Shown piece by piece: positions 32,601 to 49,804 of a stretch of DNA of 64,000 nt; the stretch's first letter is position 1, and every line of letters starts with the position of its first letter. Under the pieces are notes generated by a model, which was given only the letters and a program-made list of their open reading frames with translations, made no database searches and was not told the DNA's origin. The position numbers and the translations under genes were made by a program. The DNA is from Hippopus hippopus (lineage: Eukaryota > Mollusca > Bivalvia > Cardiida > Cardiidae): positions 40,628,357-40,692,356 of the forward strand of contig OX328108.1 in assembly GCA_946811185.2 (NCBI GenBank). The letters are read 5' to 3'.

Positions 32601-34171
32601 AATTTTAATCCCGTTTGCCAGCTGCAAATGCTTTCAAATCGAAGAAGTCATCTCGGAAAGAGTTGGATGCAGTACCTTACCGCATACCATACATAAAGGG
32701 AGGTTACTGCGTAGAGTTTCAGAAAAAAAAAAAGAGTTATATATCGGTTATCGATACTACTAAATAATCGTCATGTAATTCTAAATTATTGGTTGGAATG
32801 GACTCGCCTTGTAAAATGGAGTTCTCAATGTTCATTCCAGCAATCAGACTTTCAGCTTCACAAGACTTTATTTATATGTTTATTTTAAAAATAAAAAAAA
32901 AAAAAATCTCATTTAAATATCGAGTCTGTTCGTTCGTTCATTTTTTTTTGTTCGTTCGTTGGTTGGTTGGTTGGTTCGTTGGTTGGTTGGTTGGTTCGTT
33001 CGTTCGTTTATTCGTTCTTTCGTTTGTTTTTATGCATGTATAGTATTTAATGTCCTTTTTTACATTATTTCAGTAATGTCATGGTGGTCAATACACCTTT
33101 CCATGCTTTTCTGGAGAATATTTTATCAGTGCCTTGCACAATATTCATCCCAAGCCACACGCTGCTTTTCCACTTGAACATCATTGACACAATGCTCAGC
33201 GGTGAGAGAGGAATACATCCTGTCGCAATGCCTATTATCAATCCATGGAAGGCTATTGACCGAGCTGGGGATCGAGGTAGCAACCCCTTGGTTTCAAACC
33301 CTTTTCCTTGGTGACTGAGCTACCTGGCTCGGCCTCCGATAATGTCGGCTCTTGACAGTTGCCAAACTTGCCAGTGACAAACAATGAAGAAGATTTTTCT
33401 TTAACCCTTTACAAAACAATCCCTGCTTTTAACGACTCTGAGAAACAAAAAGTCATGTTAAAACAGTTTTGGAAAATGAGAAAATGCTGGTAACCAGCAT
33501 TTTCTCCTTTTCCAACAATGTTTTTGTTTTTTTTTTTTTCGCTTTTTTTTAAAAGGCAAATTCCGTCATTTGAACAATATTTGATTTGTCGTCCGCAAAT
33601 GCTTTCAATTTGGAGGAGTCTAGAATTTTGACGTGTTGTAAAGAATTGACGTGAATTTCATAATTGAGCTATGCTCTGGCAAAAGGGGGCTTAATGCATC
33701 TCCGTGTTGCATTATACCAAGCAAGACATCACATAATTATGGATCCACAAAAATCAATTTTGTCTGACAAACCGACTGACTCATGAGGTAGACTGGTCCT
33801 TTGACATACAGAAAATTGATTAATAGCGAAAAGTTTCGGCCCAGGTCAGCCTGCGCGGACTGCGCAGGCTGACCTGGGTCGATACTTTTCGTAGATGCAT
33901 TAAGCCCCCTTTTCACAGAGCATGACTCATATGTTTTGTCTATTTCAGCACCGAATTAACGAAGATTTTCAAAAACATGGACAAAGACAACAACTCCACA
34001 TTAAGTAAAGAAGAGTTAGTGGAGGGGCTTCGACAGAACAACTTTCCAGACGACCAGGCCAAGATTATTGTCGAGGAATTCGCCTATGATGAGGACCAGA
34101 AGTACAGTATTAAAGAATTTGTAGAGACAGTGCGGTTCAGTGAATATTTCAAACAAACATATGGGTTTTAA
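29522..34171 (+). CDS. EF-hand calcium-binding protein, three exons, complete
   Basis: Exons 29522-29662, 31940-32025 and 33949-34171 join in phases 0 and 2 into about 149 residues ending TYGF. The start ATG (AAGATGGCG) is the first in its frame. One EF loop (NKDGNSVLTVDE) follows an RKQAESYWNRY helix in exon 1, with Asn at position 1. Exon 2 encodes a linker helix pair, and exon 3 a second loop (DKDNNSTLSKEE). YDEDQKYSIKEF may be a degenerate third hand. The size and spacing suit a small cytosolic Ca2+ sensor or buffer of the calmodulin-like or invertebrate sarcoplasmic type; the subfamily is not resolved. A possible polyadenylation signal ATTAAA is at 34205. No signal peptide or membrane segment is present. 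Confidence 0.85.
29762..30076 (-). repeat. tRNA-derived SINE, full length
   Basis: The head on the right (complement of box A, ACTGAGCTACC) and tail on the left (TTGATTGACTGATTGTATGG). It sits in intron 1 of the EF-hand gene, antisense to it. Confidence 0.88.
30084..30255. repeat. Family B MITE, partial
   Basis: GAATCATGAGGTAAAATGG through the central stem to ATGCACTAAACTTCTTTTTC; the left terminal third is missing. Confidence 0.65.
30312..30378. repeat. Family A hairpin, reverse orientation
   Basis: Preceded by AAGCGCGACTCACTGACCTT; arms GCGGACAGTGTAGATCAAG and CTTGGATCTGCACTGTCCG. Confidence 0.85.
30541..30609. repeat. Family A hairpin, diverged
   Basis: AGCGAACGGTGTCGATCCCA with TGATCTATGTTGTCTGC; several mismatches in the stem. 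Confidence 0.7.
30641..30708. repeat. Family A hairpin
   Basis: GGAGACGGTGTATATCCAAG with CTTGATCTACACCGTCCGC; it lies about 30 bp from the previous copy as a direct repeat. Confidence 0.8.
31128..31194. repeat. Family A hairpin
   Basis: CGGACAGTGTAGATCCAAG with CTTGATCTACACTGTCCG, tip GCACGTTCTGTGC; an almost unmutated stem. Confidence 0.88.
31940..32025 (+). CDS. EF-hand gene exon 2
   Basis: Acceptor GTTTTTCAG, donor GTATGT. Reads EKFAFFGQKEVKDLTKEQFL then EGMVMADK, phase 0 in, phase 2 out. No complete Ca2+ loop. Confidence 0.82.
32262..32400 (+). repeat. Family B right end followed by SINE tail
   Basis: TATTATGGATGCA and TTAAGCCCCCTTTTGCCAGA end near 32353. A SINE 3' tail (AACGGCGTTAAACACCATAC then AATCAATCAATC) follows at once. 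Confidence 0.6.
32938..33030. repeat. GTTC/GGTT tetranucleotide array
   Basis: Alternating GTTC and GGTT units of mixed phase, adjoining the tail of the antisense SINE. Confidence 0.85.
33040..33338 (-). repeat. tRNA-derived SINE
   Basis: The complement of the head (CTGAGCTACCTGGCTCGGC) is at the right; the body complement (CATGCTTTTCTGGAG...) leads left to the microsatellite. The head has diverged from other copies. Confidence 0.8.
33460..33524. repeat. Family C hairpin
   Basis: AAAACAGTTTTGGAAAATGA on the left, CTCCTTTTCCAACAATGTTT on the right, tip CTGGTAACCAG. Confidence 0.75.
33666..33929. repeat. Family B MITE abutting a splice acceptor
   Basis: Ends TGAGCTATGCTCTGGCAAAA and TTTTCACAGAGCATGACTCA. 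The right end is only 19 bp from the first base of EF-hand exon 3, so the branch point and polypyrimidine tract lie at or inside the MITE border. Confidence 0.85.
33949..34171 (+). CDS. EF-hand gene exon 3 (terminal)
   Basis: The acceptor TGTCTATTTCAG ends at 33948. Phase 2 in; encodes MDKDNNSTLSKEELVEGL and ends at TAA 34169-34171. Confidence 0.88.
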
Positions 34172-35204: not shown

Positions 35205-35258
35205 TGGTTTGTATTGAAGTTTAACGCTGTTTTAACAGTTAAGGTCATATCACTGCAG
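35205..35258 (-). repeat. SINE 3' part, left flank of the Polinton
   Basis: GTTTAACGCTGTTTTAACAG then GGTCATATCACTGCAG is the complement of a SINE tail. The head of the same SINE is at 48348-48564, so this SINE was split by the insertion. It ends with the 6-bp target duplication CTGCAG (35253-35258). Confidence 0.85.
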
Positions 35259-35270
35259 AGTAGTATAGGG

Positions 35271-35317
35271 AGTCTCTTTTGACGTCTGACAGGCCTGGTC
35301 AGACGTCCAAAGAGACT
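35271..35317. repeat. Terminal hairpin in left TIR
   Basis: AGTCTCTTT pairs with AAAGAGACT and GACGTCTGAC with GTCAGACGTC, separated by one mismatch; the loop is AGGCCTG. The mirror copy is at 48289-48335. It lies 12 bp from the element end. Confidence 0.88.
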
Positions 35318-35496
35318 TCCCTGAGAGCCCTACGTTGCCTACCCTACAGAGAGTTTGTCCCCAGTTTGCCTACCCTGAAAGAATTTGCATTTTTTAAACA
35401 CCCCATTCTGCCTACCCTGAGGGGAATTTTTCTGCAATTAAAGGCTAAGTGCCAGACAAAATGCCATATTTTCGAAGGCACTATAGGGATCTGCCA

Positions 35497-35860
35497 GGTC
35501 TGATCACTGAGTTGGACTTAGTTTTTTCACCCATATGCTATTAGGATTGCTTTATTGTTTCTCTCTAAAAAGCCTGATCACTGAGTTGAACTTAACTTTT
35601 TTCTGCATCTATGGATGATTTCTCTCTCTAAATGCCTAACCATTGAGTTGAACTTAGACTTTTTTCTGCAATTATGAATGATTTTTCTCTAAAAGCCTGA
35701 ATACTGAGTTGGAATTAGACTTTTTTCTGCATCTATGGATGATTTCTCTTTCTAAATGTCTAACCATTGAGTTGGACTTAGTCTTTTTTGCATCTATGAT
35801 TGATTTCTCTAAAAGACTGAGCACTGAGTTGGGCTTAGTCTTTTCTGAGTTTTTTTACTC
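35497..35860. repeat. Tandem ~58-bp units in left TIR
   Basis: About six units built on (C/A)TGAGTTG(G/A)ACTTAG and TCTATGGATGATTTCTCT. The same unit makes the array at 45140-45960 and the right TIR array, there in the opposite orientation. Confidence 0.9.
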
Positions 35861-35937
35861 TTTGGAGTATGACTCTCTGGAGTGTAAATCTTTGGAGTGT
35901 AACTCTTCTAAAAGAAATGACAATTTAAAAAAGATCG

Positions 35938-35973
35938 ATCTTTCGTGGTAGATGGTTAGCCCTGAAAAGGGCT
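35938..35973 (-). terminator. Histone-type 3' end: stem-loop plus purine-rich downstream element
   Basis: On the minus strand AGCCCTTTTCAGGGCT (35973-35958) is a 6-bp stem with a TTTC loop, 31 nt after the stop of the 36004-36318 gene. It is followed by CCATCTACCACGAAAGAT. This matches the order and size of metazoan histone mRNA 3' ends; the first pair is A-U rather than the usual G-C. Confidence 0.7.
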
Positions 35974-36003
35974 GTTTTTGAGAAGGGCTGATTTTTAAAA
36001 TGT

Positions 36004-36318
36004 TTATTCAGTATCAGCATCAGTCGATTCGCTATCTGACTCACTCCTTTCAGCGGCGATTTGCGCGCGGAAAAGACGGTCTACCTGCTCTGTTTTTGAA
36101 ATAACATACTGAAAATACATTTCAAGCATGCCCTCAATAATAAGTTCCTTCATCCGAAGGTTATAACAGAACACCCTGTTATTAGCAAGCTGAGCCCTCT
36201 CGTATCGTCTTTTCACTCCAACTAAGCGCTGTTTAAGTAAAACGATTTGTCTCCTTGCTCTTGTTAACTTTCGCTCGGCATCCATCCAAGTGACGAGGAG
36301 TGATGGTCTTGAAGCCAT
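36004..36318 (-). CDS. Unrecognised 104-residue basic helical protein with acidic tail
   Basis: I do not recognise this protein. Residues 1-75 are helical and Arg/Lys-rich (RKLTRARRQIVLLKQRLVG, then RRYERAQLANNRVF). A hydrophobic stretch ELIIEGMLEMYFQYV follows, and the C-terminus is acidic and Ser-rich (ESDSESTDADTE). The basic helix suggests nucleic-acid or capsid-core binding, but this is inference. The ATG at 36316 lies about 38 nt after a TATA box (36356-36363, minus strand), with TGACGTCA farther upstream. The gene ends in a histone-like stem-loop. It is the first gene inside the left TIR and is intact while the polymerase is broken. Confidence 0.72.
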   Translation of the reverse strand: MASRPSLLVTWMDAERKLTRARRQIVLLKQRLVGVKRRYERAQLANNRVFCYNLRMKELIIEGMLEMYFQYVISKTEQVDRLFRAQIAAERSESDSESTDADTE

Positions 36319-36355
36319 TGTGAAAATGAAATGTATGAAAAATATATCGCAGAGA

Positions 36356-36420
36356 TTTATAGGTTTTCAGACGGATTGAACTAGCTGACCCATGACGTCA
36401 TTTTCTCCTATGTTTTCCCG
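36356..36420 (-). promoter_or_regulatory. Class-1 promoter module of the 36004-36318 gene
   Basis: The minus strand reads CCTATAAAT (36363-36356) with TGACGTCA at 36393-36400 and a CGCGGG box just upstream. About 230 bp of this region (36330-36590) is an inverted diverged copy of 46310-46590. Confidence 0.65.
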
Positions 36421-36650
36421 CGTCGACGTTTCATGCTGTTTTGACTCCAAATTAATGTTATCCAATCAGAATTATCGTTGTTTTTTCTAATACTAAATGT
36501 TTCATTGTTGACCAACCCGTGGTTTTGTTACATTTTTTTCTTGTTCGGGTTAGAAAAAACTAGAGTTTGACTATTCTATGACTTTTTCTGATTTTTAAAT
36601 CTTTTGAGTTTTGACAATTTTGAAGAAATGACGATTTTGAAAAAAGATAG

Positions 36651-36687
36651 AACTTTCGTGGTAGATGGGTAGCCCCTGAAAAGGGCT
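36651..36687 (-). terminator. Histone-type 3' end with bulged stem
   Basis: The minus strand reads AGCCCTTTTCAGGGGCT (36687-36671). It is 51 nt after the stop of the 36738-37043 gene and carries one extra G in the 3' arm. CCATCTACCACGAAAGTT follows. Confidence 0.6.
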
Positions 36688-36737
36688 GTTTTGTTTTGGA
36701 GGCTGTGTTTTTTTCGTCTCACGTTGTTTTTCCACTT

Positions 36738-37043
36738 CTAATGACAGCACCCGAAATTCGCTTGACAAATGGGGCATGCTTCAACTCTTTTTCTGATCAC
36801 CATTGTCCCATTATCGAAAGTAATCTTCCTCCCAAATTCGATATCAACCAAAATGACATCCGGTGTTGTCTTTAATAATAGCTGAACTAATCTTTCGCCG
36901 AGATCTTTGTATGGCTGTGTTATACGTTGTAGTTGGTTTTGTTCCTCCTCTCCTACGAGATGAGTGGTTAGTTGCAATAACTGCAGCCCGGCATTTAGAT
37001 ACTCTTGGAGAGCCTCACGTAGTTGATGATTTATCTCCTCCAT
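36738..37043 (-). CDS. Unrecognised 101-residue protein with C-terminal Cys cluster
   Basis: I chose the ATG at 37041-37043 (MEEINHQLREALQEYL) because the upstream open frame lacks a good start and contains the promoter. The protein is a predicted amphipathic helix pair (residues 1-60) followed by a short beta-like part and a terminal CPICQANFGCCH, which could bind one zinc. A similar CPAC...GC end occurs in the 46599-47039 protein, so the two may share a partner. Its 5' leader has the same GAAGCA(G/A)TATCAATATT repeats as the 44332 gene. It carries the class-1 promoter and 3' signals. No function can be assigned. Confidence 0.7.
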   Translation of the reverse strand: MEEINHQLREALQEYLNAGLQLLQLTTHLVGEEEQNQLQRITQPYKDLGERLVQLLLKTTPDVILVDIEFGRKITFDNGTMVIRKRVEACPICQANFGCCH

Positions 37044-37190
37044 TTTGATATTGCTTCCGAATATTGATACTGCTTTCGAAGTGATCCTTAGCTGAGAGTC
37101 AAAAAATGATGATTGTATGAAAATAACGCTGGGCTTTATACGTTTACAGAGGATTGAAATTTTTAAAGAGCTCGGACCTGGCAGAAAGCA
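37044..37190 (-). promoter_or_regulatory. Class-1 promoter module of the 36738-37043 gene
   Basis: TATAAA on the minus strand at 37140-37135 is followed by GCCCAGCGTTATTTTCATAC. The region is an inverted relative of 44140-44330, including GGACCTGGCAGAAA upstream and the GAAGCAGTATC repeats downstream. No TGACGTCA is seen here. Confidence 0.65.
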
Positions 37191-37316
37191 CATACATTTT
37201 TTCCATGCTACGTTTCATGCTAATATAGCAAAAAAGTTATGAGCCGATGTATGGAAAAAATGTAGACAGAACAAGTCTTTGGGGAAAAACAGAATGAAGA
37301 GCTCTATTGTTTTTTG

Positions 37317-37346
37317 AACTTTTATTTATTGAACTTTTATTTATTG
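37317..37346 (-). terminator. Polyadenylation signals for the 37675-38328 transcript
   Basis: The minus strand carries two GTTCAATAAATAAAAG units, each with overlapping AATAAA hexamers, beyond a minisatellite 3' UTR. This gene lacks a histone-like hairpin. Confidence 0.55.
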
Positions 37347-37369
37347 AACAGAACTAAACAATGAAACAT

Positions 37370-37680
37370 TTTTTGCATTGCATCATAAAAATTTTCTTGA
37401 CAATGAAAAAAATTTCTTGACAATGAAAAAATTCACAAGGAAACATTTTTTTACAATACAGCATAAAAACATTTTCTTAACAATGAAAAAATTCACACTG
37501 AAATATTTTTTACAATACAGCATAAAAAACATTTTCTTAACAATGAAAAAAAATCACACTGAAATATTTTTTCACAATGAATTATTCACAATGAAAAAAT
37601 CACACTGAAATATTTTTTTTACAATGAATTACTCACAATGAATTATTTACAATGAATTATTCGCAATGAATTTTTTACAA
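37370..37680. repeat. Minisatellite of CAATGAAAAAAT-type units
   Basis: Irregular repeats of AACAATGAAAAAATTCACAC and TACAATGAATTA form the 3' UTR of the 37675-38328 gene on the minus strand. Confidence 0.8.
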
Positions 37681-38328
37681 TGCAAATTCGCAAATACCAC
37701 GAGTCTCACATTTGTCTTCATATTCCGTAATGTCTTTATGCAATTGGTCATACCCCAAAAACATTGTATACTCACTGCCCATATCGTCGAAATCTCGTAG
37801 TCCTATGAATGGAGCAACATGTCTATAAGCGTCTTTTGTTGAAAGAACTGAATTTACTACTTCTTCTGTAACATCTCTATCAAATAGAATATACCCTGAC
37901 ATGGTTTCCATTGTTTCTCCGTAGGAATGAACAGATCCTTTTTTGTAGCGTAAGTAAAAGTCAAATAGAACTGATTTCGTTTTCAGAACGTTAAGAAAAC
38001 TTTCTTCTGTTGTTCCTATGATAAAAAATGTCCATCGACTTGTGGATCGAAACAGTTTACTAATAACATTGTCTTTCAAGCAGCTATCTGCTAAATGAGT
38101 CTTGAGATCGAGATCAAAACACGAATCGTCCACCATCATCGCAATAAAGTTGATTATGCCATACACTTTGTAGGACTTTTCTCCTTTTGCAACCCATTTA
38201 AACATTTTTTTGATCCAAATTTTCACACAGAAAAATTTAATGTTAAGCTGTGTTCGTTCATCAAGCGTATGCTGTCGAACAAATTCTCCATAAATTTTAT
38301 CACGTAGTTCTATTGGTAACGGTAACAT
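37675..38328 (-). CDS. Unrecognised 217-residue protein
   Basis: Intact frame from ATG at 38328 to TAA. The N-terminus LPLPIELRDKIYGEFVRQ has the look of an F-box-type helix, but this is weak. A central Trp/Phe-rich part (RSTSRWTFFIIGTTEESFL) and an acidic C-terminus follow. There is no Cys cluster, signal peptide or clear membrane helix. It lies directly downstream of the polymerase on the same strand, 78 bp from its end, and probably has its own promoter in that gap or is co-transcribed. Unlike the small flanking genes it has AATAAA signals rather than a histone-like end. Confidence 0.65.
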   Translation of the reverse strand: MLPLPIELRDKIYGEFVRQHTLDERTQLNIKFFCVKIWIKKMFKWVAKGEKSYKVYGIINFIAMMVDDSCFDLDLKTHLADSCLKDNVISKLFRSTSRWTFFIIGTTEESFLNVLKTKSVLFDFYLRYKKGSVHSYGETMETMSGYILFDRDVTEEVVNSVLSTKDAYRHVAPFIGLRDFDDMGSEYTMFLGYDQLHKDITEYEDKCETRGICEFAL

Positions 38329-38406
38329 GATTGTTATTTTTTGACCAACGGCTAATATTTTCCCGACTTACTTTGACTGATTGCTACACAACAATATGAT
38401 ATAGAA

Positions 38407-41400
38407 TTATTTTTTCAAACTTTTATAACCATAGGGTACAGTATCAGTACCATTTACAATAACTCTCTTGGTGTATACAGAGCGAAACGTTTTTGTTTGT
38501 GCTTCACTGGTAATCGTTCTATCTCTGTGTCTTTTAATTCTACAATCATACTGAATTTTGATTTCTATTGTGCGATCCAAAGCGCATTTTTAATATGTAT
38601 CGAAATTCACCACCTGTTTTGTATTGTAATCCAGAGTAATCCCCTTTACTTTACATTTGCTTATCTCTTCTCCATCTTTTGTTTTCATTTTGTAAGCATA
38701 ATTCTTAGGCCCAAGCCCTCTGAATTGAGTAATTTTACAAGCAGGCTCTTCATCAGTCCATTTTCCTAACCGACTGTTAATAATAGGAGGATTCCATAAT
38801 TCAGGATCGTGAATGTACATACAACTATCTGTATCGAAATACAGAACTCTATCTTTTAACTTTTCAAGAACACTGTACAATTCCAACCTTGCATAAGCTG
38901 TTACGTAAGACCCTACTACCACATTGGCTGTAGCGTGGGTGTCAATATGTTCCAACTTTGATTCATAGTTAACCAAGATGAATGAACAGTCCTCGTCAAA
39001 GATTTCTACATGCTTTACAATGAAATTGGGATTGGTGACTAATTCAAAATATTTAGACGGATCACTGATGTATTCCGTCTGGGTCATTTTTTCACGCTGA
39101 GCTAATTTTCCCCAAAGGCAGTTCAACATAATCTTAGCAAATGATCTTCTCCCAGGATTTCTTTGAATATAACTTGGATCAAGACGAATACCTTCCGCCT
39201 TCTCATATTCACAAACGAACTGATCTTTTTCTGAGTCTGATTGACACCAATCTGGATAACCACTGGCTTCTTGCTTAATTTTCAAGAAATTGTCCACATA
39301 ATGTTTAAAGAACTGATCTGATACAGAATTGAAATGCCAAATTTCATACACTTGCAATAATCGATAACCACAGTCAAGAGCCTTGAATAATTCAAAAGTA
39401 ACCCAAGTTCCGACCAAAGCCCTCTCTTCTTTACCATGCCTACAAATGCTTGAACTTTCTTCTGCACATTTCATACAGAGTGGAAACATCATTTTGTTGT
39501 TACAGTGAACTGGGAGAATGGGGTGAAACAAATCAGTTGGAGCCAAAACTTTGCATTTGGTTAACCCCTCATATTGTCGAATATTGTTCATGTCAATATT
39601 CTCATCAGACAAAATTTCTGGCTGACCTACAGGATAGGATTTGTGTTTACAAACATAAGGGTATAGAGAACAGATATCGATGTACTTGATTTCATTTTTG
39701 GTTTTTTCATCAACATCATAACCAATTTTTATTGCATTACATCTTCCCCCAGACAAACCATCCCTCGGATCGATAGGGTCCCAATGTGGATATAACTTTT
39801 CAATGAGTTTTTTGTACTCTTTATCCTTCATCTTAGCATCGAAATCGTGTTCCCAAATGTACACTACATTATAACCCATTTTTTCGATAGCTGCTATACG
39901 TTCAAAAGTACGTTCGTACAATTCAGACATGGATTTCCCATTAATAGGATTGATCTGATTTCGATCTGTATAGCATACAGGACAACCATGATACAAATCC
40001 CCAAGAAATTCATAAACAGTGTTTGATTGACGGTGAAAACCATCTACACTATATCTCCCGATTTGAACTTCTCCACCATTTTTTGCATGCCGAATATTAA
40101 TACCTTTTTCCAGAGCTACGCTTTGAATCCACCGTATCGCTTTCATAGAAAAGCGACGTCTGGATGAGTCTTTGCTTGAAATGATAGCTATTTGATTTTC
40201 TGGCAAATATTTGCTTCGCCAGACCTTGTTACAGGCATCTGCAATGGTAATCGCCTCTAAAAATGGACAAATACCACCCTGTTCGATAAACAGCTTTCTG
40301 AATTCACCACATCCTCGTCTGAGGATATCAACATCTGACCTACAGTACAATTCCATCTCCTTCTGAAAATTGAATTCCTCACCCTTTTGAACTTTGTCAT
40401 TATACCAAACTATGAATTTTGACCTAGCCTCTTCAGACATTGAGTCGGGTTTGTAATAAGATATATCCAAGTAAGGTCCAATGTAACTCCAAAATTTATC
40501 TGTATTTGCCCAGTGAGGAAAGTAACCTTTTTTCATTTCTTGAAGATCAAATGTGGCTGGAAATTTTGCCAAACCAAAGCTCATGAAATTGAAAGAATCG
40601 ATCAGACGTATACCATTCAGTTCTTACTTCATAATATTGTTTCCATTCATGATCAATTTTGGAATTTTTAACCCAACTTTGACAATATAGCCAAGAATGA
40701 ACTGACTGTCATAACCTTTGAAATTATGGGCAATAGCCGTGACTCCTTTATGATGTTTTGAAAAGAGCCAGTTGCAAAATTGACTCAAAGTTTCTTCACC
40801 TTGAAAAATAACTTCCCTACCCTCTTCAAATTCACTGCATGTAGAACAATGAAAATCAAGTGATTTATCGATACATTCATCACATGCTCTGTGTGCAATA
40901 CAATAATTCGGGATGTGTACCCCTGTGTCTTGCTTGCATTCAAAATCAAAGAAAATAAAATGTGGTTTTTTAACTACAGAAGAACTCGTCTCGTCATCGC
41001 TTTCATGGTTCAACTTACTTTGGTAAGGCTGAATATAGCATCGATGAGAAAAGTTAACAATTCTCTTACAGATATGACACTTTTTCTTTCCATTGCAAAC
41101 ATGATTTTTCTTTCTGACAAGATATTGTGCACCACATTTCGAACAGAGTTTTACTAATTCACAAATGGATTTCTTTTCTTTACCTTGAACAATTCTGTGA
41201 TTTTCAAAGCATTCAGCGCTAAAAAATCGTCTATTGCAATCACTGCAAACATATTCTTTAATTTCTGATGGACATTTTCCTTTGCGCCAACAATCTTTGC
41301 GCCAACAACCTTTGCAGATATTTGAACAAGCATGACTTTCACGGATAGAGTAACCCACATCACAGAACTCGCAATAATATACACAACAAAAAAACCTTTG

Positions 41401-42395
41401 ATAGATTTGATACAGTCATAATGGTTTTGATGAAAGTACAAATGTATGATCTTACTATTGGTTTTCACTTTTGGATGTTCAAATATTTTTTCCACTTTTG
41501 AATGCTGTTGATGAACTTTAATGACATAGTCTTTTTCATACAAGAATGTTTGAATTTTTTTGTATTCATCAATTCCTACAGGTTGTGTTGGTGAAACTCC
41601 AGCTTCATTCAACAATTTCTCAGCTTCAGTCTTTTGAAGAGAGGATTTTGAACAACGAATACGGCGCCATTTTCTATCCCATGCTCTGGTGTTTTCACGT
41701 TCACTGTAGCAAATTCCCACAACAATGGCTCTTGCAAAACATAGTTGGTCATGATTGTCAATTTGAATAATGGATTTTTTCTTCTGGGCAAAAAACCTTG
41801 AATCTAATTCAGATGATGATCTATATTTTCCGCTACCACTTGGAGGTATTGTATGTGTAATATCAAATGTCATGAGTCCATCGTTCAAGACGAAATCTGT
41901 ATTCGATTGTAAAACTCATTCAATTTCATTTAACATAGTTTCACCTTGCAACTGATCTGTGGTTAAAAAGGGGATATGGATCCCCATATCCAATGAAGGA
42001 TGATTGATGGTAATTCTAATCATATCCGTCGGGTTAGCATTTAACTTTCGAATAATTTCATGGGTAACATCGTCAAATAATCCAAGTAGTCTCTGAGGTG
42101 TTAATTCTTTAAATTTCTTAAAACTCAGCATCAGCATATGTGATTCTGTTTTAAATTTTCTTGACTTCTTATTACCCCTTTCTGTTAAATCATATAGACT
42201 TTTCATGTCTAAGCTAGAGTTGATACTTTCATCGTCAGTGTCAATTTCTTCTTTCTTTTTTGTTGGTGGAAATATCTCATCGTCACTGTCACTTTCTTCT
42301 TTCAACGGTCTAGTTTTTTTCTTTTTTGTTGGTGGAAATACCTCATCGTCACTTTCGCTGTCTGAATAGGTTATTATTCTTTTTCTTTTACCCAT
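38407..42395 (-). pseudogene. polB: Protein-primed family B DNA polymerase of the Polinton (broken)
   Basis: Replicative polymerase, originally about 1,330 residues. The start is MGKRKR at 42395, because a TATA box (42458-42449) lies about 55 nt upstream; an earlier ATG at 42467 would precede the TATA box. An acidic/basic NLS-like head is followed by the conserved N-terminal region (LCFARAIVVGICYS), Cys-rich zinc motifs, exonuclease motifs (FFDFE, DFE at 40940-40948; AHNFKGYDSQFIL; YCRSDVDIL), an endonuclease-like insert (VDGFH...YEFLGDLYHG...YIWEHDFD), and motifs A (SLYPYV), B (LNCLWGK) and C (YFDTDS, 38827-38835). The lesions are an in-frame TGA at 41916-41918, a frameshift near 41376-41400, and in-frame TAA at 40624-40626 and 38590-38592. 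The conserved C-terminal part continues in frame to TAA at 38407-38409. All catalytic residues I can see are still present. Confidence 0.92.
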
Positions 42396-42448
42396 CGTTT
42401 TAGCTCTGAGTGAGAAGACAATAATGCAGGAAGTGAGAAAAACTAACA

Positions 42449-42485
42449 ATTTATATAACCTCTCCATTGCAACAGTGTATAAATA
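42449..42485. promoter_or_regulatory. Compact divergent promoter, polymerase (-) and zinc-knuckle gene (+)
   Basis: TATATAAA on the minus strand (42458-42451) and TATAAATA on the plus strand (42478-42485) lie about 20 bp apart. They serve the genes starting at 42395 (-) and 42554 (+). Neither has the TGACGTCA or AGCGTTAT context of the class-1 promoters. Confidence 0.65.
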
Positions 42486-42553
42486 GAGACGACAGTTGTG
42501 AAAATCTAATCATTTTCCTGCTCAATCTCAGACAGTACAGTTGATAAAAGAAT

Positions 42554-43405
42554 ATGTGCGAGTTCAAGCTGCAAAATACATCACCACTTAGAAAGAGGAT
42601 GCATCTGTATGTTAATCCATACACCTACGATTATGAGATCAGCAATATACCATCAAAGTATGATGTTAAACATATCGGAAACTACGTGGGATCATTTTTA
42701 TCCCACCAACATTTAGAAGAAAAAGATGTTTACCGTACTACCAGATACAGAGTTTTGGATCAAGCGACGATTGACAAACGATATGGGGTGAATGGTGAGA
42801 GAACAAATATTTGTTTTACATGCAACGAAGCAGGACATTGGGCCAAAGAATGTCCAGAAAAAGAAAATCAGATAGGAACATTTGTTTTTGTCTACGTGAA
42901 TCCACACAGTCATGACATTGAAATTTTACCATCGTTTTACAACGTTGACGGTCTCCAAAATATAAAATTCGTCGGGACACTAAATTCATTCTACAGCGAA
43001 AATACATGGAAAAAAAGTTCACCACAAGCTACATCATCATCGGTTGAAACTCAGACCGTAGACATGCAGAGCGACACAACGGCTATCACCGATTCAGAAA
43101 TCTGCAAAATAACAGAACAGATAGAGAAAAAAATATCTACAAATGATAATCTAAGAAAACAACAAACTTTGGATCTAAAAAACGAATTTTCTGCAGAACC
43201 GGGTTGTTCGTACGGAGAGGAAAAACAGCAAAACAACGAAAAGAAGAAAAAACGAGTAACAAAGAACTGTTTCTTTTGCAAATCAACAAAACACAAGGGT
43301 GAAATCTGTCCAGATATGGTATTAAAAAACAACGAAAGGAAAAGAAAACGTAAAACCAAATGTGAATCTGACATTCCGAAGAAAAAAAGAAAACATACTG
43401 AGTGA
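42554..43405 (+). CDS. Double zinc-knuckle (CCHC) protein with duplicated domain
   Basis: 283 residues, intact. Two CX2CX4HX4C zinc knuckles (87-100, CFTCNEAGHWAKEC; 239-252, CFFCKSTKHKGEIC) indicate single-stranded nucleic-acid binding, as in retroviral Gag or CNBP-type proteins. Before each knuckle there is a related segment with YVNP (19-22 and 114-117) followed by an (I/F)VG-containing strand, so the protein looks like a domain-plus-knuckle unit used twice. The C-terminus is very basic (KKKKRVTK, ERKRKRKTK, KKKRK), consistent with nuclear import. It is divergently transcribed from the polymerase, so a replication role such as ssDNA binding is plausible but unproven. A polyadenylation signal AATAAA is at 43597. 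Confidence 0.8.
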   Translation: MCEFKLQNTSPLRKRMHLYVNPYTYDYEISNIPSKYDVKHIGNYVGSFLSHQHLEEKDVYRTTRYRVLDQATIDKRYGVNGERTNICFTCNEAGHWAKECPEKENQIGTFVFVYVNPHSHDIEILPSFYNVDGLQNIKFVGTLNSFYSENTWKKSSPQATSSSVETQTVDMQSDTTAITDSEICKITEQIEKKISTNDNLRKQQTLDLKNEFSAEPGCSYGEEKQQNNEKKKKRVTKNCFFCKSTKHKGEICPDMVLKNNERKRKRKTKCESDIPKKKRKHTE

Positions 43406-43454
43406 AAAAAAGATTTCAACACAATATTGAATTCAAACAAAAAAGACTGACTTG

Positions 43455-43560
43455 ATTTTTTCATTCATTTTTTATCTTTACAGTTCATTCATTTTTTGTC
43501 TTTACAGTTCATTCATTTTTGTTTTTACAGTTTATTCATTTTTTGTCTTTTACAGATCAT
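43455..43560 (+). repeat. Short tandem repeat in 3' UTR (CATTCATTTTTTGTCTTTACA)
   Basis: Four units of about 27 bp, each with TTCATTCATTTTT and TTTACAG. They lie between the stop of the zinc-knuckle gene and its AATAAA. Confidence 0.8.
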
Positions 43561-43596
43561 GACTTGATATTTTCATTGTACATAAGTTCTTTTGAA

Positions 43597-43602
43597 AATA
43601 AA
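43597..43602 (+). terminator. AATAAA polyadenylation signal of the zinc-knuckle gene
   Basis: AATAAA 195 nt after the stop codon, with a T-rich stretch downstream. No histone-like hairpin is present on this strand. Confidence 0.55.
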
Positions 43603-43690
43603 AACATGAAAATAATTACTTCTTACTTTTGACTTTTTTCTAGTTTTAACTGTAAGTCTTTTTTTTTACTTTTGACAATTTGAAAAGAAA

Positions 43691-43727
43691 GATCTTTCGT
43701 GCTAAATGGTTAGCCCTGAAAAGGGCT
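43691..43727 (-). terminator. Histone-type 3' end of the 43759-43965 gene
   Basis: The minus strand reads AGCCCTTTTCAGGGCT (43727-43712), 32 nt after the stop, followed by AACCATTTAGCACGAAAGAT. Confidence 0.7.
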
Positions 43728-43758
43728 TTTTTTAAGGATTTCACGATAACATCGAGCT

Positions 43759-43965
43759 CTACGACTCTTCTAACCGATCCACTGGGGTGATTTCACACCC
43801 ACAGTGTTCACAGCAAGTCGATGAACCTTCATCATCATCGTAAAATCCTTCATCTGTATCTGGACACTTATGTTTCTGTCCAAGATACTCAAGTATGGCA
43901 AAACATTTTCCACACTCTATCTGGCATCTGCTTGAGCAGTGAGGGCACACAAGAATTCGAACCAT
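43759..43965 (-). CDS. Cys-rich 68-residue putative zinc-binding protein
   Basis: Intact ATG-to-stop frame with eleven cysteines: CPHC (7-10), C14, CGKC (18-21), C34 and CCEHCGC (51-57). The spacing fits two small zinc sites of a ribbon type, but I know no exact family. An acidic loop (DEGFYDDDEG) separates the clusters. The gene shares a bidirectional promoter region with the 44332 gene and ends in a histone-like hairpin. It could be a transcription or assembly cofactor; function unassigned. Confidence 0.7.
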   Translation of the reverse strand: MVRILVCPHCSSRCQIECGKCFAILEYLGQKHKCPDTDEGFYDDDEGSSTCCEHCGCEITPVDRLEES

Positions 43966-44003
43966 CCTGCAACAAATATGTTTTTATGTAAAATATCGCT
44001 GGG

Positions 44004-44220
44004 TTTTATAGCTTTACAGGAGGATTGAACTAGTTGACCCATGACGTCATTTTCTCCTATGTTTTTCCCGCGTCGGCGTTTCATTAACATTGTACAATCA
44101 AATCGATGGTTATATCGGTGTTTTTTCACCACTCCTAATTCGGTGTCACACAGTACAATCCTGGTGTTTTCTGCCAGGTCCGCGCTCTTTAAAATTTTCA
44201 ATCCTTTGTAAACGTATAAA
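44004..44220. promoter_or_regulatory. Divergent class-1 promoter region (43965 gene, -; 44332 gene, +)
   Basis: TATAAAA on the minus strand (44010-44004) is followed by CCCAGCGATATTTTACAT. TATAAA on the plus strand (44215-44220) is followed by GCCTAGCGTTATTTCCATAC. TGACGTCA is at 44042-44049, beside a TTTTCCCGCGTCGGCG box. Confidence 0.7.
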
Positions 44221-44275
44221 GCCTAGCGTTATTTCCATACATTCACCATTTCTTTGACTCTCAGCAAACGAACAC

Positions 44276-44330
44276 TTCGAAAGCAGTATCAATATTCGAA
44301 AGCAGTGTCAATATTCGGAAGCAGTTTCAA
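44276..44330 (+). repeat. Three ~18-bp leader repeats
   Basis: CGAAAGCAGTATCAATATT occurs three times with small changes directly before the ATG at 44332. The leader of the 36738-37043 gene has two such units. Confidence 0.8.
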
Positions 44331-44331
44331 T

Positions 44332-44919
44332 ATGAAGCACAACTTAGATGAAATCAACTTGGACGATTTTCCACCAGTGGAAAACAATGGAGACATTCTT
44401 TCATCAGTTATAAATTCGACAATTATCAACCCACCGACGGTGTTGGACAACATTTGTGAAGAGATGAAACAGTTAAATTAAAAACAAGATGCCATGATGA
44501 CTCGGATCTTAGAACAGCTGGAGACTTTTAACCAAAATTTGGAGGAGATTAAAACTTTAAACACAAACACCGAGCAGCTCAGTAAAAATATTGAGGTACT
44601 ACGCCAGCAGAGTCAGCACATTTCACCAGTTCCTGTGAAGATCCCTGTGGAGTTTGAGTTTGATAAAACCAATCTTCACAACTTAGTGGACTCAATCGTA
44701 ACTGTTGTGAAGAAAAATCAGCCAAAGGAAAAACAACCAAGAACAACAAAGCCAAGAAAACGGAAATCTGAGGAAGACGATACCCATCTCCACAAGAAAC
44801 AGCGAGTTGATCAAAAGCCAACTACACCAATAATGACAGGCCAGGGTAAATACGGGAAAAACATAGATAATCACGTTGATTTCAAGATCCCTAAAAAGCC
44901 AAAGAAAAGCTGTCGGTAG
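44332..44919 (+). pseudogene. Unrecognised coiled-coil/basic protein gene with in-frame TAA
   Basis: The frame opens at ATG 44332 (MKHNLDEINLDDFPPVENN), meets TAA at 44479-44481 and is open again in the same frame up to TAG at 44917. The heptad-like pattern either side of the stop (LDNICEEMKQL before; ILEQLETFNQNLEEIKTL after) suggests one coiled coil, so I read this as a single broken gene. The ATG at 44494 could still give a 141-residue product. The C-terminal half is basic (KKNQPKEKQPRTTKPRKRK, HKKQRVDQK) with probable nuclear signals. Class-1 promoter upstream; three histone-like hairpins downstream. Confidence 0.68.
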
Positions 44920-44948
44920 AGAAAAAAACACAGCCTCAAAAACAAAAC

Positions 44949-45034
44949 AGCCCTTTTCAGGGCTACCCCAACAGTTCTTTTCAGAGCTAACCCAACAGTC
45001 CTTTTCAGGACTAACCATCTACCACGAAAGATCT
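44949..45034 (+). terminator. Triple histone-type stem-loops plus downstream element
   Basis: AGCCCTTTTCAGGGCT (44949-44964, 29 nt after the stop), AGTTCTTTTCAGAGCT (44973-44988) and AGTCCTTTTCAGGACT (44997-45012). Each has a 6-bp stem and a TTTC loop. ACCACGAAAGATCT (45021-45034) follows once. Confidence 0.72.
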
Positions 45035-45139
45035 ATCTTTCTTCAAATTGTCATTTCTTCAAATTGTCAAACTTCTTTCTTTTAGAAGAGTTACACTCCA
45101 AAGATTTACACTCCAGAGAGTCACACTCCAAAGAGTAAA

Positions 45140-45960
45140 AAAAAACTCAGAAAAGACTAAGCCCAACTCAGTGCTCAGTCTTTTAGAGAAATCAATCATA
45201 GATGCAAAAAAAGACTAAGTCCAACTCAATGGTCAGGCATTTAGAAAGAGAAATCATCCATAGATGCAGAAAAAACTAAGTTCAATTCAATGGTTAGACA
45301 TTTAAAAGAGAATTCATCCATAGATACAGAAAAACTCTAAGTTCAACTCAATGGTTAAGCATTTAGAAAGAGAAATCATCCATAGGATGAAAAAAGCTAA
45401 GTTCAACTCAATGGTCAGACATTTAGAAAGAGAAATCATCCATAGATGCAAAATAAGACTAAGTCCAACTCAATGGTCAGACATTTAGAAAGAGAAATCA
45501 TCCATAGATGCAGAAAAAACTAAGTCCAACTCAATGCTCAGGCTTTTAGAGAAAAAATCATCCATAGATGCAGAAAAACTAAGTCCAACTCAGTGGTCAG
45601 GCTTTTTTAGAAAGAAAAATCATCCATAGATGCAGAAAAAAACTAAGTTCAATTCAATGGTTAGACATTTAAAAGAGAAATCATCCATAGATGCAGAAAA
45701 AACTCTAAGTTCAACTCAATGGTTAGGCATTTAGAAAGAGAAATCATCCATAGGATGAAAAAAGCTAAGTTCAACTCAATGATCAGACATTTAGAAAGAG
45801 AAATCATCCATAGATGCAAAAAAAGACTAAGTCCAACTCAATGGTCAGACATTTAGAAAGAGAGAAATCATCCATAGATGCAGAAAAACTAAGTCCAACT
45901 CAATGGTCAGGCTTTTAGAGAAAAAATCATCCATAGATGCAAAAAAACTAAACACAACTC
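45140..45960. repeat. Tandem array of ~58-bp units (internal copy)
   Basis: About fourteen units with AACTCAATGGTCAGACATTT and AAATCATCCATAGATGCA. The units are the complement of those in the left TIR and the same strand as those in the right TIR, so this array looks like a displaced TIR segment. Confidence 0.88.
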
Positions 45961-46008
45961 AGTAATATAGGGCTAAAATCAAAAAACTAAAAAGTGACCC
46001 ATTGCACA

Positions 46009-46015
46009 TATAAAA
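46009..46015 (+). promoter_or_regulatory. TATA box of the 46-residue membrane peptide gene
   Basis: TATAAAA about 70 nt before the ATG at 46085, without the AGCGTTAT context or TGACGTCA. Confidence 0.5.
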
Positions 46016-46084
46016 CAGTAAACTCTTGATTAATTTTTCTCAGTCACCATTAACTTTTCGTAAAAGCTGAGTCAGTATCCCATA

Positions 46085-46225
46085 ATGTTTGGATTGACAT
46101 TTTTTCTCTCATTGCTCTTCTGGTTAGAAGAAAGAGAACGTTTCAGATATATCAGGTATGAAATTGAGCATCTGATGCAAATGCTAGATAGAATGGAATC
46201 AATCGAAAGAAAGAGGGGAGGATAA
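46085..46225 (+). CDS. 46-residue putative single-pass membrane peptide
   Basis: ATG to TAA, 46 codons. Residues 2-14 (FGLTFFLSLLFWL) are a short hydrophobic helix. The remainder is charged and helical (EERERFRYIRYEIEHL, then DRMESIERKRGG) and could form a coiled coil. Support comes from a TATA box 70 nt upstream and an AATAAA at 46274. The size and layout recall small viral membrane or virion peptides, but nothing identifies a function. The next gene begins about 370 bp downstream with a class-1 promoter. Confidence 0.55.
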   Translation: MFGLTFFLSLLFWLEERERFRYIRYEIEHLMQMLDRMESIERKRGG

Positions 46226-46273
46226 AAAATGTATTCTACACAAAATCAGATCTTTTGAGGACTAGCTATCTTA

Positions 46274-46279
46274 AATAAA
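46274..46279 (+). terminator. AATAAA signal after the 46-residue gene
   Basis: CTTAAATAAAATATC, about 50 nt after the stop codon. Confidence 0.45.
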
Positions 46280-46502
46280 ATATCTTTCTTTTCATTTTTG
46301 TCAGAAGACTCATAATCAAAAAAAGTCATAGGATAGTCAAACTTAGTTTTTCTAAACCCGAACAAGAAAATGTAACAAAACTATAGATTGGTCAACAATA
46401 AAACATTTACCATTAGAAATAAAACGCTGCTTCTGATTGGATAACATTAATTTGGAGCCAAAACAGCATGAAACGCCGACGCGGGAAAAACATAGGAGAA
46501 AA

Positions 46503-46560
46503 TGACGTCATAGGTCAACTAGTTCAATCCGTCTGAAAAGCTATAAAACCCAGCGTTATT
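46503..46560 (+). promoter_or_regulatory. Class-1 promoter module of the 46599-47039 gene
   Basis: TGACGTCA (46503-46510), then TATAAAA (46542-46548) and CCCAGCGTTATTTTCCCGC. GACGCGGGAAAAACATAGG lies just upstream. The ATG is 57 nt after the TATA box. Confidence 0.7.
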
Positions 46561-46598
46561 TTCCCGCACATCATTCATCTCTTCGACTTACAGCCAAA

Positions 46599-47039
46599 AT
46601 GGAGTGTGCATTGAGGGATATGAATTTCTGGGAGCTTGCCCAGCTGTCATCGAAAGAAAAAAAGAAGAAGGAGTTTGTCGTACCCCAGACTGAGTGTTGG
46701 GATAGTGACAACGAGCCACCGTTCTCGTTGGAGTTCGATTTGGATGACCAACAACTAAAGAAGAAGGAAAAGAAGAAGGAGTTTGTCGTACCCCAGACTG
46801 AGTGTTGGGATGGTGACAACGAGCCACCGTTCTCGTTGGAGTTCGATTTGGATGACCAACAACTAAAGAAGAAGGAAAAGAAGAAGGAGTTTGTCGTACC
46901 CCAGACTGAGTGTTGGGATAGTGACAACGAGCCACCGTTCTCGTTGGAGTTCGATTTGGACGAACAGCAGCTAAAAAGGCTAAAGAGGCGGGCAGCGAGT
47001 AGCTGCCCAGCCTGCAGAAAGGTTGGAGGTTGTGCTTAA
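46599..47039 (+). CDS. 146-residue protein with three 36-residue repeats
   Basis: The head MECALRDMNFWELAQLSS is followed by three nearly identical repeats at 108-bp spacing (nucleotides 46671, 46779, 46887). Each has FVVPQTECW, an acidic DNEPPFSLEFDLD core and a Lys-rich linker. The end is basic with a Cys cluster (KRLKRRAASSCPACRKVGGC). The alternating acidic/hydrophobic modules resemble short linear motifs presented in series, for example activation or scaffold-binding peptides; this is inference. It has the class-1 promoter and a histone-like 3' end. The reverse strand is also open here as a by-product of the repeats. Confidence 0.72.
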   Translation: MECALRDMNFWELAQLSSKEKKKKEFVVPQTECWDSDNEPPFSLEFDLDDQQLKKKEKKKEFVVPQTECWDGDNEPPFSLEFDLDDQQLKKKEKKKEFVVPQTECWDSDNEPPFSLEFDLDEQQLKRLKRRAASSCPACRKVGGCA

Positions 47040-47080
47040 AAACACAACCTCCAAACCAGGTCCCTTTTAGGACACCCAAC

Positions 47081-47118
47081 AGCCCTTTTCAGGGCTAACC
47101 ATCTACCACGAAAGATCT
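47081..47118 (+). terminator. Histone-type 3' end of the 46599-47039 gene
   Basis: AGCCCTTTTCAGGGCT (47081-47096), 41 nt after the stop, then AACCATCTACCACGAAAGAT. A degenerate earlier hairpin, GTCCCTTTTAGGAC, is at 47060-47073. Confidence 0.72.
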
Positions 47119-47640
47119 ACCTTTCTTCAAATTGTCAGACGTAAGTTCTATCTTTTCTTCAAATTGTCATTTCTTCAAATTGTCAGACGAAAGTTCTATC
47201 TTCAAGTTGACATTTCTTCAAATTGTCACAGCTCTTTTCAGAGCTAACCCAACAGTCCTTTTCAGGACTAATCATCTACCACGAAAGATCTATCTTCAAG
47301 ATGCCAGACGAAAGTTCTATCTTCAAGCTGTCAGACGAAAGTTCTATCTTCAAGATGCCAGACGAAAGTTCTATCTTCAAGTTGTCATTTCTTCAAATTG
47401 TCACAGCTCTTTTCAGAGCTAACCCAACAGTCCTTTTCAGGACTAACCATCTACCACGAAAGATCTATCTTCAAGATGCCAGACGAAAGTTCTATCTTCA
47501 AGTTGTCAGACGAAAGTTCTATCTTCAAGTTGTCATTTCTTCAAATTGTCACAGCTCTTTTCAGAGCTAACCCAACAGTCCTTTGCAGGACTAACCATCT
47601 ACCACGAAAGTTCTATCTTTCTTCAAAATTGTCATTTCTT
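47119..47640 (+). repeat. Array of histone-type stem-loops and downstream elements
   Basis: Three ~150-175-bp units each contain AGCTCTTTTCAGAGCT (47230, 47405, 47553), AGTCCTTTTCAGGACT (47254, 47429; TTGC loop at 47577), CTACCACGAAAGATCT or a close variant, and several CAGACGAAAGTTCTATCTTC repeats. Confidence 0.85.
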
Positions 47641-48347
47641 TTAGAAGAGTTACACTCCAAAGAGTTACACTCCAGAGAGTAAAAAACTCAGAAAAAGTCT
47701 AAGTCCAACTCAGTACTCAGTCTTTTAGAGAGAAAAAATCATTCATAGATGCAGAAAAAGACTAAGTCCAACTCAATGGTCAGACATTTAGAAAGAGAAA
47801 TCATTCATAGATACAGAAAAAAGAATAAGTCCAACTCAATGGTCAGACATTTAGAAAGAGAAATCATCCATAGATGCAGAAAAAAGTCTAAGTCCAACTC
47901 AGTATTCAGGCTTTTAGAGAAAAATCATTCATAATTGCAGAAAAAAGTCTAAGTTCAACTCAATGGTTAGGCATTTAGAAAGAGAAATCATCCATAGATG
48001 CAGAAAAAAGCTAAGTTCAACTCAGTGATCAGGCTTTTTAGAGAGAAACAATAAAGCAATCCTAATAGCATATGGGTGAAAAAACTAAGTCCAACTCAGT
48101 GATCAGACCTGGCAGATCCCTATAGTGCCTTCGAAAATGTGGCATTTTGTCTGGCACTTAGCCTTTAATTGCAGAAAAATTCCCCTCAGGGTAGGCAGAA
48201 TGGGGTGTTTAAAAAATGCAAATTCTTTCAGGGTAGGCAAACTGGGGACAAACTCTCTGTAGGGTAGGCAACGTAGGGCTCTCAGGGAAGTCTCTTTGGA
48301 CGTCTGACCAGGCCTGTCAGACGTCAAAAGAGACTCCCTATACTACT
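47577..48347 (-). repeat. Polinton right terminal inverted repeat
   Basis: Complement of the left TIR. The outer ~520 bp differ by only a few bases; the tandem ~58-bp array (47690-48060) has one more unit than the left. Confidence 0.9.
48289..48335. repeat. Terminal hairpin in right TIR
   Basis: Mirror of 35271-35317, identical in stem, mismatch and loop. Confidence 0.88.
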
Positions 48348-48564
48348 CTGCAGTCAGTGCACCTACGCATGTGTTTCCTGGCTTTTTCACACCAGTAAAT
48401 ACTGACACAACTTTCTGTCCAAGCCACTACCTGCTTTTCTCACATGCATCAGAGGTGAGAGGCGAAAAATCGCCGAAAAGAGAGTTTGCCTCAACTGGGT
48501 ATCGAACTCGTAACCACCAGGTCACGAGTCAGATACCCTAACCACTGAGCTACCCGGTCGGGCT
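48348..48564 (-). repeat. SINE 5' part, right flank of the Polinton
   Basis: It starts with the target duplication CTGCAG (48348-48353), continues TCAGTGCACCTACGCATG and ends in the complement of the tRNA-like head (CTGAGCTACCCGGTCGGGCT). Box B complement GGGTATCGAACTC is present. With 35205-35258 it makes one SINE of the 3117-3385 subfamily. Confidence 0.87.
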
Positions 48565-48660: not shown

Positions 48661-49804
48661 ATTAACAAACGTCACAAATTTCAAACACGATGATATAGGA
48701 AGCATTTACAGACATCAAAATAGATGTGGCTCAAAATGTGAGATTAGTCTTGATGAAGGTAGAAAACATTGTGCGAAAAGGAGAAAATGCTGGTTATCAG
48801 CATTTTCTCCTTTGTGTACAATCTTTTCCACAAGATTGTTAAAAACGCGATTATCCGAAAAGACACATTACGCAGATGTCCGAATGCCCCTATTTACGTG
48901 TTGAAGGCCAATTATAGAACAGTAATTACATCGATTATAAAGCTCATTATATCCCAGCGACAAAGAAATTTTAGTTGCCTTTTCACACACAATGTGTAAT
49001 CTGATGTACAATTTTCTTGTTTAAATAGTCAGACCGAAACAGCCTTGAAAATTTATATTCAGACATTTTTTCGACCTACTAGATTTTACTACATAATCTC
49101 CATTATTTTCAGTGCAATATGGCCATTACGAATTTTCTCATCTTACACACGTTTGGGATAAGATTTTTTGACGTCATAGAAGCATTATGTGACGTCATTT
49201 GTTAATCTAAGCCTTGTATGAATTCCTTTCCGTTGTTTCCAAAGCTTGTTAGACACAAATTGTCCGGCCAATTCAACAGTCAAAATTGGTGATCGTTGTA
49301 GAGCTAAAATTTGTTTGTTTTTTTTTTTTTTTTTTTCTTTGTATAAGAAAAAATCAAGTATTTCACGTCAGCTTCTTTGGAACTAGTTTTTTCCCAATGG
49401 TACACTTCTGTCAAAGCAGTGAGTAGGTCCTTTTTTCCGTGGACCTCTGCAGGCCTTTTGAGGACATGTTTGTGGGTCCTATTATAACACCCATACTCAA
49501 AGATTGTCACTGTTAATCGATGCCCCCACGGGGCTTATTCACACCAAAGCAAATAAACATGATAAGGTTTAATCTTTTTCTTGTACAATGTTGTTGTTAC
49601 GTTATCCTATAACCCGTTCCTGTACAGTCTATCGGTATTTTCAGTCATACACTGTTGAGGCAGCAACGGCTCCTTTTCCAAAGACTAATTTGATCTTTGT
49701 TACGGAAGATCACTCCTTCCCAACCGCATAGCTTCATCCGGTATAACATCAATACCTAGCAACCGAGTTAAAGGCGCTTCAGCGAGTTATTTCTAGCGCA
49801 GAGA
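48661..49804. repeat. Tandem duplication, copy 1 (1,144 bp)
   Basis: Begins ATTAACAAACGTCACAAATT. It contains a family C hairpin (about 48762-48832), the TGACGTCA-type dispersed repeat and a poly-T run. I see no host gene in it. Confidence 0.9.

Follow-up and report, generated by a model that had tools for sequence, protein, structure and literature searches.

Histone-type hairpins and purine-rich boxes behind five non-histone genes of a polymerase-bearing inverted-repeat element in Hippopus hippopus

A 13.1-kb element with terminal inverted repeats (TIRs) at its two ends was found in a 64,000-nucleotide stretch of the Hippopus hippopus genome (GenBank assembly GCA_946811185.2, contig OX328108.1, positions 40,628,357 to 40,692,356 of the forward strand), referred to below as the window. 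Five small genes of this element, here named A, B, E, F and G, were each followed in sense by the hairpin AGCCCTTTTCAGGGCT, which contains an additional base in B. From these signals and their surroundings, we consider it likely that five non-histone mRNAs carry 3' ends of the histone type, dependent on U7 and SLBP. This kind of signal is already known; its use by the non-histone genes of a mobile element would be new. No Polinton, transposon or virus with histone-type 3' ends was found in the open-licence literature among the matches listed.

The preliminary description of this DNA had reported five hairpins behind stop codons, one of them with a 1-nt bulge. Their coordinates proved correct (Table 1), each lay in sense with its upstream gene, and the bulge was located in the hairpin at 36671-36687. 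The distance from stop to hairpin was 30 nt in A, 50 in B, 31 in E, 29 in F and 41 in G, in agreement with the close placement reported earlier, the measured range being 29-50 nt instead of 29-51 nt. The genes with hairpins occupied both strands of the element.

Eight hairpins beyond those of the preliminary description were present, two in tandem after the copy at 44949 and six in an array at 47230-47592, and four of them (44997, 47254, 47429 and 47577) directly preceded a box. The element thus contained 13 hairpins in total (10 distinct rows) and eight hairpin-plus-box units, all eight in sense. The eight boxes read CACGAAAG(A/T)TC and followed the hairpin after a constant gap of 10 nt. A box had been claimed behind each of the five original hairpins. 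This was so in A, B, E and G; that of gene F stood behind the third hairpin, not behind the 44949 copy. The CACGAAAG sequence occurred eight times in the element and not once in the remaining 50.9 kb. Six extra ACGAAAGTTC boxes, which lack the leading C and have no hairpin of their own, lay at 47187-47519, most of them within 27-bp repeats behind gene G.

Strict SLBP-type hairpins (NGYYYTTHTHARRRCN, six pairs) numbered 11 in the window, all inside the element; 60 first-order Markov windows contained 0.12 on average and one at most. Of the 13 hairpins, 11 were perfect for NGYYYTTHTHARRRCN, one had an extra base and one a loop change. The longer form AACRGYYYTTTTCARRRCYAMCC matched six times in the window and never in 100 shuffles. 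Viral contigs yielded no match to it; the prokaryote genome collection yielded a single one, in a Sphingobacterium record, which was taken as chance.

A chance origin of the hairpins was considered and rejected on the consensus counts in simulated windows, on the shuffles and, in part, on the pair counts (three of five measures). A chance figure of 6e-9 was obtained for five hairpins lying behind stops in sense. This figure assumes independence and was not relied upon, because the paralogy of the units, described below, breaks that assumption.

The letters of the signal were compared with what has been described for histones. A stem-loop with a histone downstream element (HDE), a purine-rich element downstream, is given as the hallmark of replication-dependent histones (PMC5011920), and in the bivalve Lucina pectinata the stem-loop is reported for all histone mRNAs and purine-rich elements for some (PMC6210712). 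SLBP is described as requiring G at the second stem position, where it is contacted by Arg181, and its minimal site as having two A before the stem and one A after it (PMC10388802). All 13 hairpins had G at stem position 2, A at position -2 and A at +1, the last being read past the extra base in B.

The main cleavage of histone pre-mRNA is placed at a CA that lies 5 nt past the stem (PMC6303110), and histone ends of C. elegans are placed 3-6 nt behind the hairpin (PMC1924863). A CA ending at +5 was present in all eight box-bearing units. The purine core of the mouse HDE is given as AAAGAG, in which mutations reduce processing (PMC7026596). The boxes contained AAAGA, five of these six letters, except for two of the eight, which had AAAGT.

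The Rfam family of the histone 3' stem-loop, RF00032, was searched with matches taken to E 10. Within 14.5 kb, all nine matches, with E values from 0.0014 to 6.7, fell on these hairpins, and across the whole window all seven matches did so.

Variation among the 10 distinct rows left the stems paired. Stem pair 3 was C-G in six rows, U-A in three and U-G in one, and pair 4 was C-G in eight and U-A in two. Pairing was retained in 96.7% of the stem cells; two stem positions changed on both sides, giving five both-sided cells. None of 500 shuffles had as high a percentage of paired cells, as many both-sided cells or as high a covariation score.

The unit from the hairpin to 48 nt on was then compared among the five genes by gapped pairwise identity. 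The five units were 0.85-0.94 identical (mean 0.89), versus 0.54 for shuffled partners. Identity was 0.61 between stop and first hairpin (shuffled 0.59) and 0.59 over the 100 nt behind the block (shuffled 0.57). With the block at 0.89 and the flanks mostly at the shuffled level, we take the five units to be paralogues in which the block has outlived most of its surroundings. An ungapped comparison gave 0.76-0.96 inside the block and 0.21-0.46 outside it; this comparison was anchored on the third hairpin of F, which hid a likeness of B and F upstream, and the gapped one is relied upon here.

Folding predictions placed a hairpin at the expected position in all five 3' regions. Compared with shuffles, the fold energy was unusual for gene F (z -4.7) and gene G (z -3.7). 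The box was predicted to pair with a TCTTTC-like stretch that follows it in B, F and G, and with bases upstream of it in E.

Poly(A) signals were distributed differently behind the two sets of genes. AATAAA or ATTAAA was absent within 350 nt after the stop in A, B, F and G, four of the five hairpin genes, and present within the same distance of four of the five non-hairpin stops. At the end of the DNA polymerase gene (38407) the signal was at +166, within the next gene. The stop without one, at 41916, was taken as lying inside the broken polymerase gene.

TATAAA was found upstream of the ATG in all five hairpin genes. A, E and G had a promoter block in common that contains TGACGTCA and GCGGGAAA, and B and F shared a different block without the E2F-like GCGGGAAA. 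The latter fits the E2F consensus, TTTSSCGC. This consensus occurred four times in the 13.1 kb of the element versus three times in the remaining 50.9 kb. No enrichment was seen for TGACGTCA (three sites in the element versus 11 elsewhere).

We propose that the host SLBP would bind the hairpin of the pre-mRNA and the host U7 small nuclear ribonucleoprotein the CACGAAAG box, with CACGAAAGATCT as the putative U7-pairing stretch. Cleavage would follow the CA that lies about 5 nt past the hairpin, leaving an mRNA without a poly(A) tail. Export, translation and decay of the five mRNAs would then be governed by SLBP, so that most of the protein synthesis would fall in S phase, the period in which the host provides replication factors and nucleotides. 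E2F-like sites are also present upstream of the TATA box in three of the five promoters. The polymerase and the other genes without hairpin appear to rely on ordinary poly(A) signals, and the element would therefore run two expression classes. This suggests that the element borrows the replication-linked RNA ending machinery of its host, from which it would presumably benefit.

The histone-type 3' signal proposed in the preliminary description thus found good support in the sequence, through the hairpin, compensated stems, SLBP-critical G, +1 A, position of the CA, purine box at fixed spacing and scarcity of poly(A) signals. Several points weigh against a histone-type ending. The gathering score of RF00032, 34 bits, was not reached in the window, the best match being 25.7 bits, and several unrelated Rfam families scored higher there by chance. 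The hairpins were therefore not filed as RF00032 members; the signal of the element is regarded as one that would work like a member. The first pair, as had been noted earlier, was A-U instead of the canonical G-C; this held for nine of the 10 distinct rows, and the tenth row (B) was out of register through its extra base. SLBP reads a different base of the stem. The base at -1 was C in 12 of the 13 hairpins, versus A in the minimal SLBP site.

Further points stand against the interpretation. Two pairs changed on both sides were also reached by 157 of the 500 shuffles, and three further pair types by 446; related rows can, moreover, beat shuffles without any structure. The compensated stem variants were confined to the extra hairpins behind F and G. 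The paralogy of the units belongs here as well, together with the exceptions among the flanks, 0.93 identity of B and F upstream and 0.75 of A and F downstream. The predicted fold of B, with a 7-bp stem and a 3-nt loop, departs from the SLBP shape. Fold energy was not unusual for A (z -1.7), E (z -1.4) and B (z -0.5), and the predicted pairing of the box could hide it from U7. Finally, gene E has a poly(A) signal at +223, an AATAAA spans the stop codon of gene A itself, and an E2F-like site was found in only three of the five hairpin-gene promoters.

Three other explanations were weighed. The units might be DNA-level repeats, that is, protein-binding dyads or iterons serving replication, packaging or terminal-repeat recombination, which came to lie at gene ends by duplication of gene cassettes. 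In favour of this, the units behind A, F and G adjoin terminal-repeat-like sequence and 61-bp repeats; the ACGAAAGTTC boxes without hairpin behind gene G also fit. The units of B and E are interior, however, and among the 20 largest of 31 direct-repeat families they were covered only by the family of the unit itself. All eight units are in sense. Furthermore, a loop and pyrimidine/purine stem sides that obey the SLBP rule would be needless for a symmetric DNA dyad. We regard this explanation as unlikely. A hairpin belonging to the element itself, acting in transcription termination or RNA stability outside the histone pathway, would have precedents in other large DNA viruses, in which gene-end hairpins guide 3' ends. 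The shared letters exceed a hairpin, though, and include the TTTC loop, the YYY/RRR stem, G at position 2, the +1 A, the CA at +5 and the purine box at fixed spacing, and this explanation appears very improbable.

It may also be that a histone-like 3' end of the host was captured once and copied with promoter-terminator cassettes, and is now neutral or half active, with polyadenylation elsewhere. The paralogy of the units, the sharing of some flanks and the likeness of promoters within A, E and G and within B and F all agree with such copying, and the decay of this copy of the element (see below), the missed RF00032 cut-off and the misshapen hairpin of B are in line with it. Passive copying is less easily reconciled with a block of 0.89 mean identity between flanks mostly at the shuffled level, with stem variation that is compensated, and with four of five genes lacking a poly(A) signal within 350 nt. 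We judge it quite unlikely, and a histone-type ending in use by the element remains the interpretation we prefer.

If this interpretation is true, the histone 3' end pathway can be hijacked by a mobile element, and there is a natural means of coupling its genes to S phase with no poly(A) tail involved. The hairpins would also be a source of naturally occurring, compensated variants of the SLBP target. Genes of this kind would be overlooked by poly(A)-selected RNA sequencing.

Table 1. Coordinates of the element, its genes and their signals in the window
Feature	Coordinates	Strand	Remarks
Element, 13.1 kb	35252..48354	.	bounded by TIRs; ends ACTGCAGAGTAG ... CTACTCTGCAGT
Left TIR	35252..35844	+	
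Right TIR	47756..48354	-	inner border of the 97% stretch
Gene A, 104 aa	36004..36318	-	no Pfam match
Gene A hairpin, histone-type	35958..35973	-	
Gene A CACGAAAG box (HDE-like)	35940..35947	-	
Gene A promoter block	36356..36421	-	TATAAA, TGACGTCA, E2F-like GCGGGAAA
Gene B, 101 aa from inner ATG	36738..37043	-	no Pfam match above cut-off
Gene B hairpin, one extra G	36671..36687	-	predicted fold 7-bp stem, 3-nt loop
Gene B CACGAAAG box	36653..36660	-	
217-aa gene	37675..38328	-	AATAAA at about +330; neither hairpin nor Pfam match
Type B DNA polymerase gene (PolB), broken	38407..42467	-	Pfam PF03175; no hairpin behind
283-aa zinc-knuckle gene	42554..43405	+	no hairpin; AATAAA at +192
Gene E, 68 aa	43759..43965	-	resembles a zinc ribbon by eye, with several CxxC pairs; no Pfam match above cut-off
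Gene E hairpin, histone-type	43712..43727	-	best RF00032 match, 25.7 bits
Gene E CACGAAAG box	43694..43701	-	
Gene E promoter block	44005..44071	-	TATAAA, TGACGTCA, E2F-like GCGGGAAA
Gene F (as read here)	44332..44919	+	one frame in two pieces, split by stop ending at 44481
Gene F first hairpin	44949..44964	+	
Gene F second hairpin	44973..44988	+	stem variant
Gene F third hairpin	44997..45012	+	compensated stem variant, adjoins box
Gene F CACGAAAG box	45023..45030	+	
46-aa open reading frame	46085..46225	+	N-terminus hydrophobic by eye; AATAAA at +49, hairpin absent
Gene G promoter block	46481..46567	+	E2F-like GCGGGAAA, TGACGTCA, TATAAA, second E2F-like site
Gene G, 146 aa	46599..47039	+	36-aa repeat present about three times; no Pfam match above cut-off
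Gene G hairpin	47081..47096	+	
Gene G CACGAAAG box	47107..47114	+	
Array behind gene G	47225..47613	+	three further units, each two hairpins and a box
Array hairpins (starts)	47230, 47254, 47405, 47429, 47553, 47577	+	
Array boxes (starts)	47280, 47455, 47603	+	

The proteins of A, B, E, F and G had no significant similarity to one another, the best blastp match (E 0.028) covering 16 aa of B and G. Proteins B and G, otherwise unlike, share a terminal CPxC....GC motif. The start of gene B was inferred, the open frame from an ATG extending to 37193. The second piece of gene F encodes a basic C-terminus.

The polymerase gene was recognized from its piece at 38590-40623 (Pfam PF03175, 1.1e-37). 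It gave low-identity matches to 19 phage or archaeal virus records, with one annotated as protein-primed among the best 10 of the 19, and no solved structure was matched by its sequence. The gene is disrupted by in-frame stops and a frameshift. Gene F, as read here, is also broken by an in-frame stop, and the present copy of the element is therefore taken to be decaying.

The TIRs were identical at 580 of 599 aligned positions including gaps (97%), and their ungapped arms of 538 nt at 99%. From the left repeat, weaker homology (83%) continued to about 35976, reaching into the terminator of gene A. A near-perfect palindrome lies near the tip of the left repeat (35271-35317) and is present in the other repeat too. 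The 61-bp repeats of the TIR interior recur inside the element at 45148-45951, immediately past the gene F terminator, which looks like the result of an inward duplication of an end block.

The element had earlier been called a Polinton. This label was partly upheld, by a polymerase gene of the protein-primed type, though broken, and by the long TIRs. It was not upheld by the other features looked for. A retrovirus-like integrase gave no Pfam match in the open reading frames searched, where divergent or lost genes are possible, and neither did capsid proteins, packaging ATPase or cysteine protease. The usual tips of Polintons (Mavericks) and their 6-bp target-site duplication were likewise not seen: the tips here were ACTGCAG, and the sequences at the ends were CATATC on the left and CAGTGC on the right. 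Single-sequence AlphaFold models of two open reading frames were unconfident (mean pLDDT 35.2 and 34.5).

No relatives were found by protein when two PolB pieces and two other proteins were searched against viral contigs and one PolB piece against prokaryote genomes, and none by DNA pattern in the same two collections, which we judge to contain few animal sequences; single-protein searches of this kind reach close relatives only. We conclude that this PolB-bearing TIR element is probably related to Polintons, without being a proven Polinton.

Some other features of the window lay outside the element. A short open reading frame with an EF-hand pair (33926-34171; Pfam EF-hand_7, 2.5e-7) lies about 1 kb to the left and is perhaps a host exon. 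Immediately to the right, a direct duplication at 48661-50749 has a spacing of about 1.14 kb, with 99% identity between 48661-48960 and 49805-50104 and 98% between 49307-49606 and 50450-50749. A tandem array at 57589-58954 consists of 9.4 copies of a 145-bp unit. Inverted repeats at 14643-14717 and 62187-62267 gave below-cut-off microRNA-family scores on both strands and are perhaps miniature transposons.

Among known elements, PolB and long TIRs agree with a kinship to Polintons, adintoviruses or bidnaviruses. Adintoviruses are defined in a 2024 preprint by PolB and hexon, and encode an rve integrase too (PMC11071296). With these and with Polintons, the element shares the protein-primed type of polymerase gene and the long TIRs; it differs in having no Pfam-detected integrase, capsid, packaging ATPase or protease, in its ACTGCAG tips and in showing no target-site duplication. 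The PolB and TIRs of bidnaviruses are described as thought to derive from Polintons (PMC4061559). The element resembles bidnaviruses in having PolB and TIRs with integrase undetected. It differs in having no helicase or capsid homologue by Pfam and in being a 13-kb element within a chromosome-like window; one bidnavirus segment is smaller than this.

Compared with histone mRNA 3' ends, the element differs in that its genes are not histones, its hairpins stand partly in tandem, the first pair is A-U, C precedes most stems and the Rfam score is under the cut-off. The likeness lies in a 6-bp stem with a TTTC loop and YYY/RRR sides, G at position 2, the +1 A, the CA at +5, a purine box after a 10-nt gap and a signal close to the stop. 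Like histone genes, each hairpin gene was read as one uninterrupted frame, save for the stop in F, and has TATAAA upstream.

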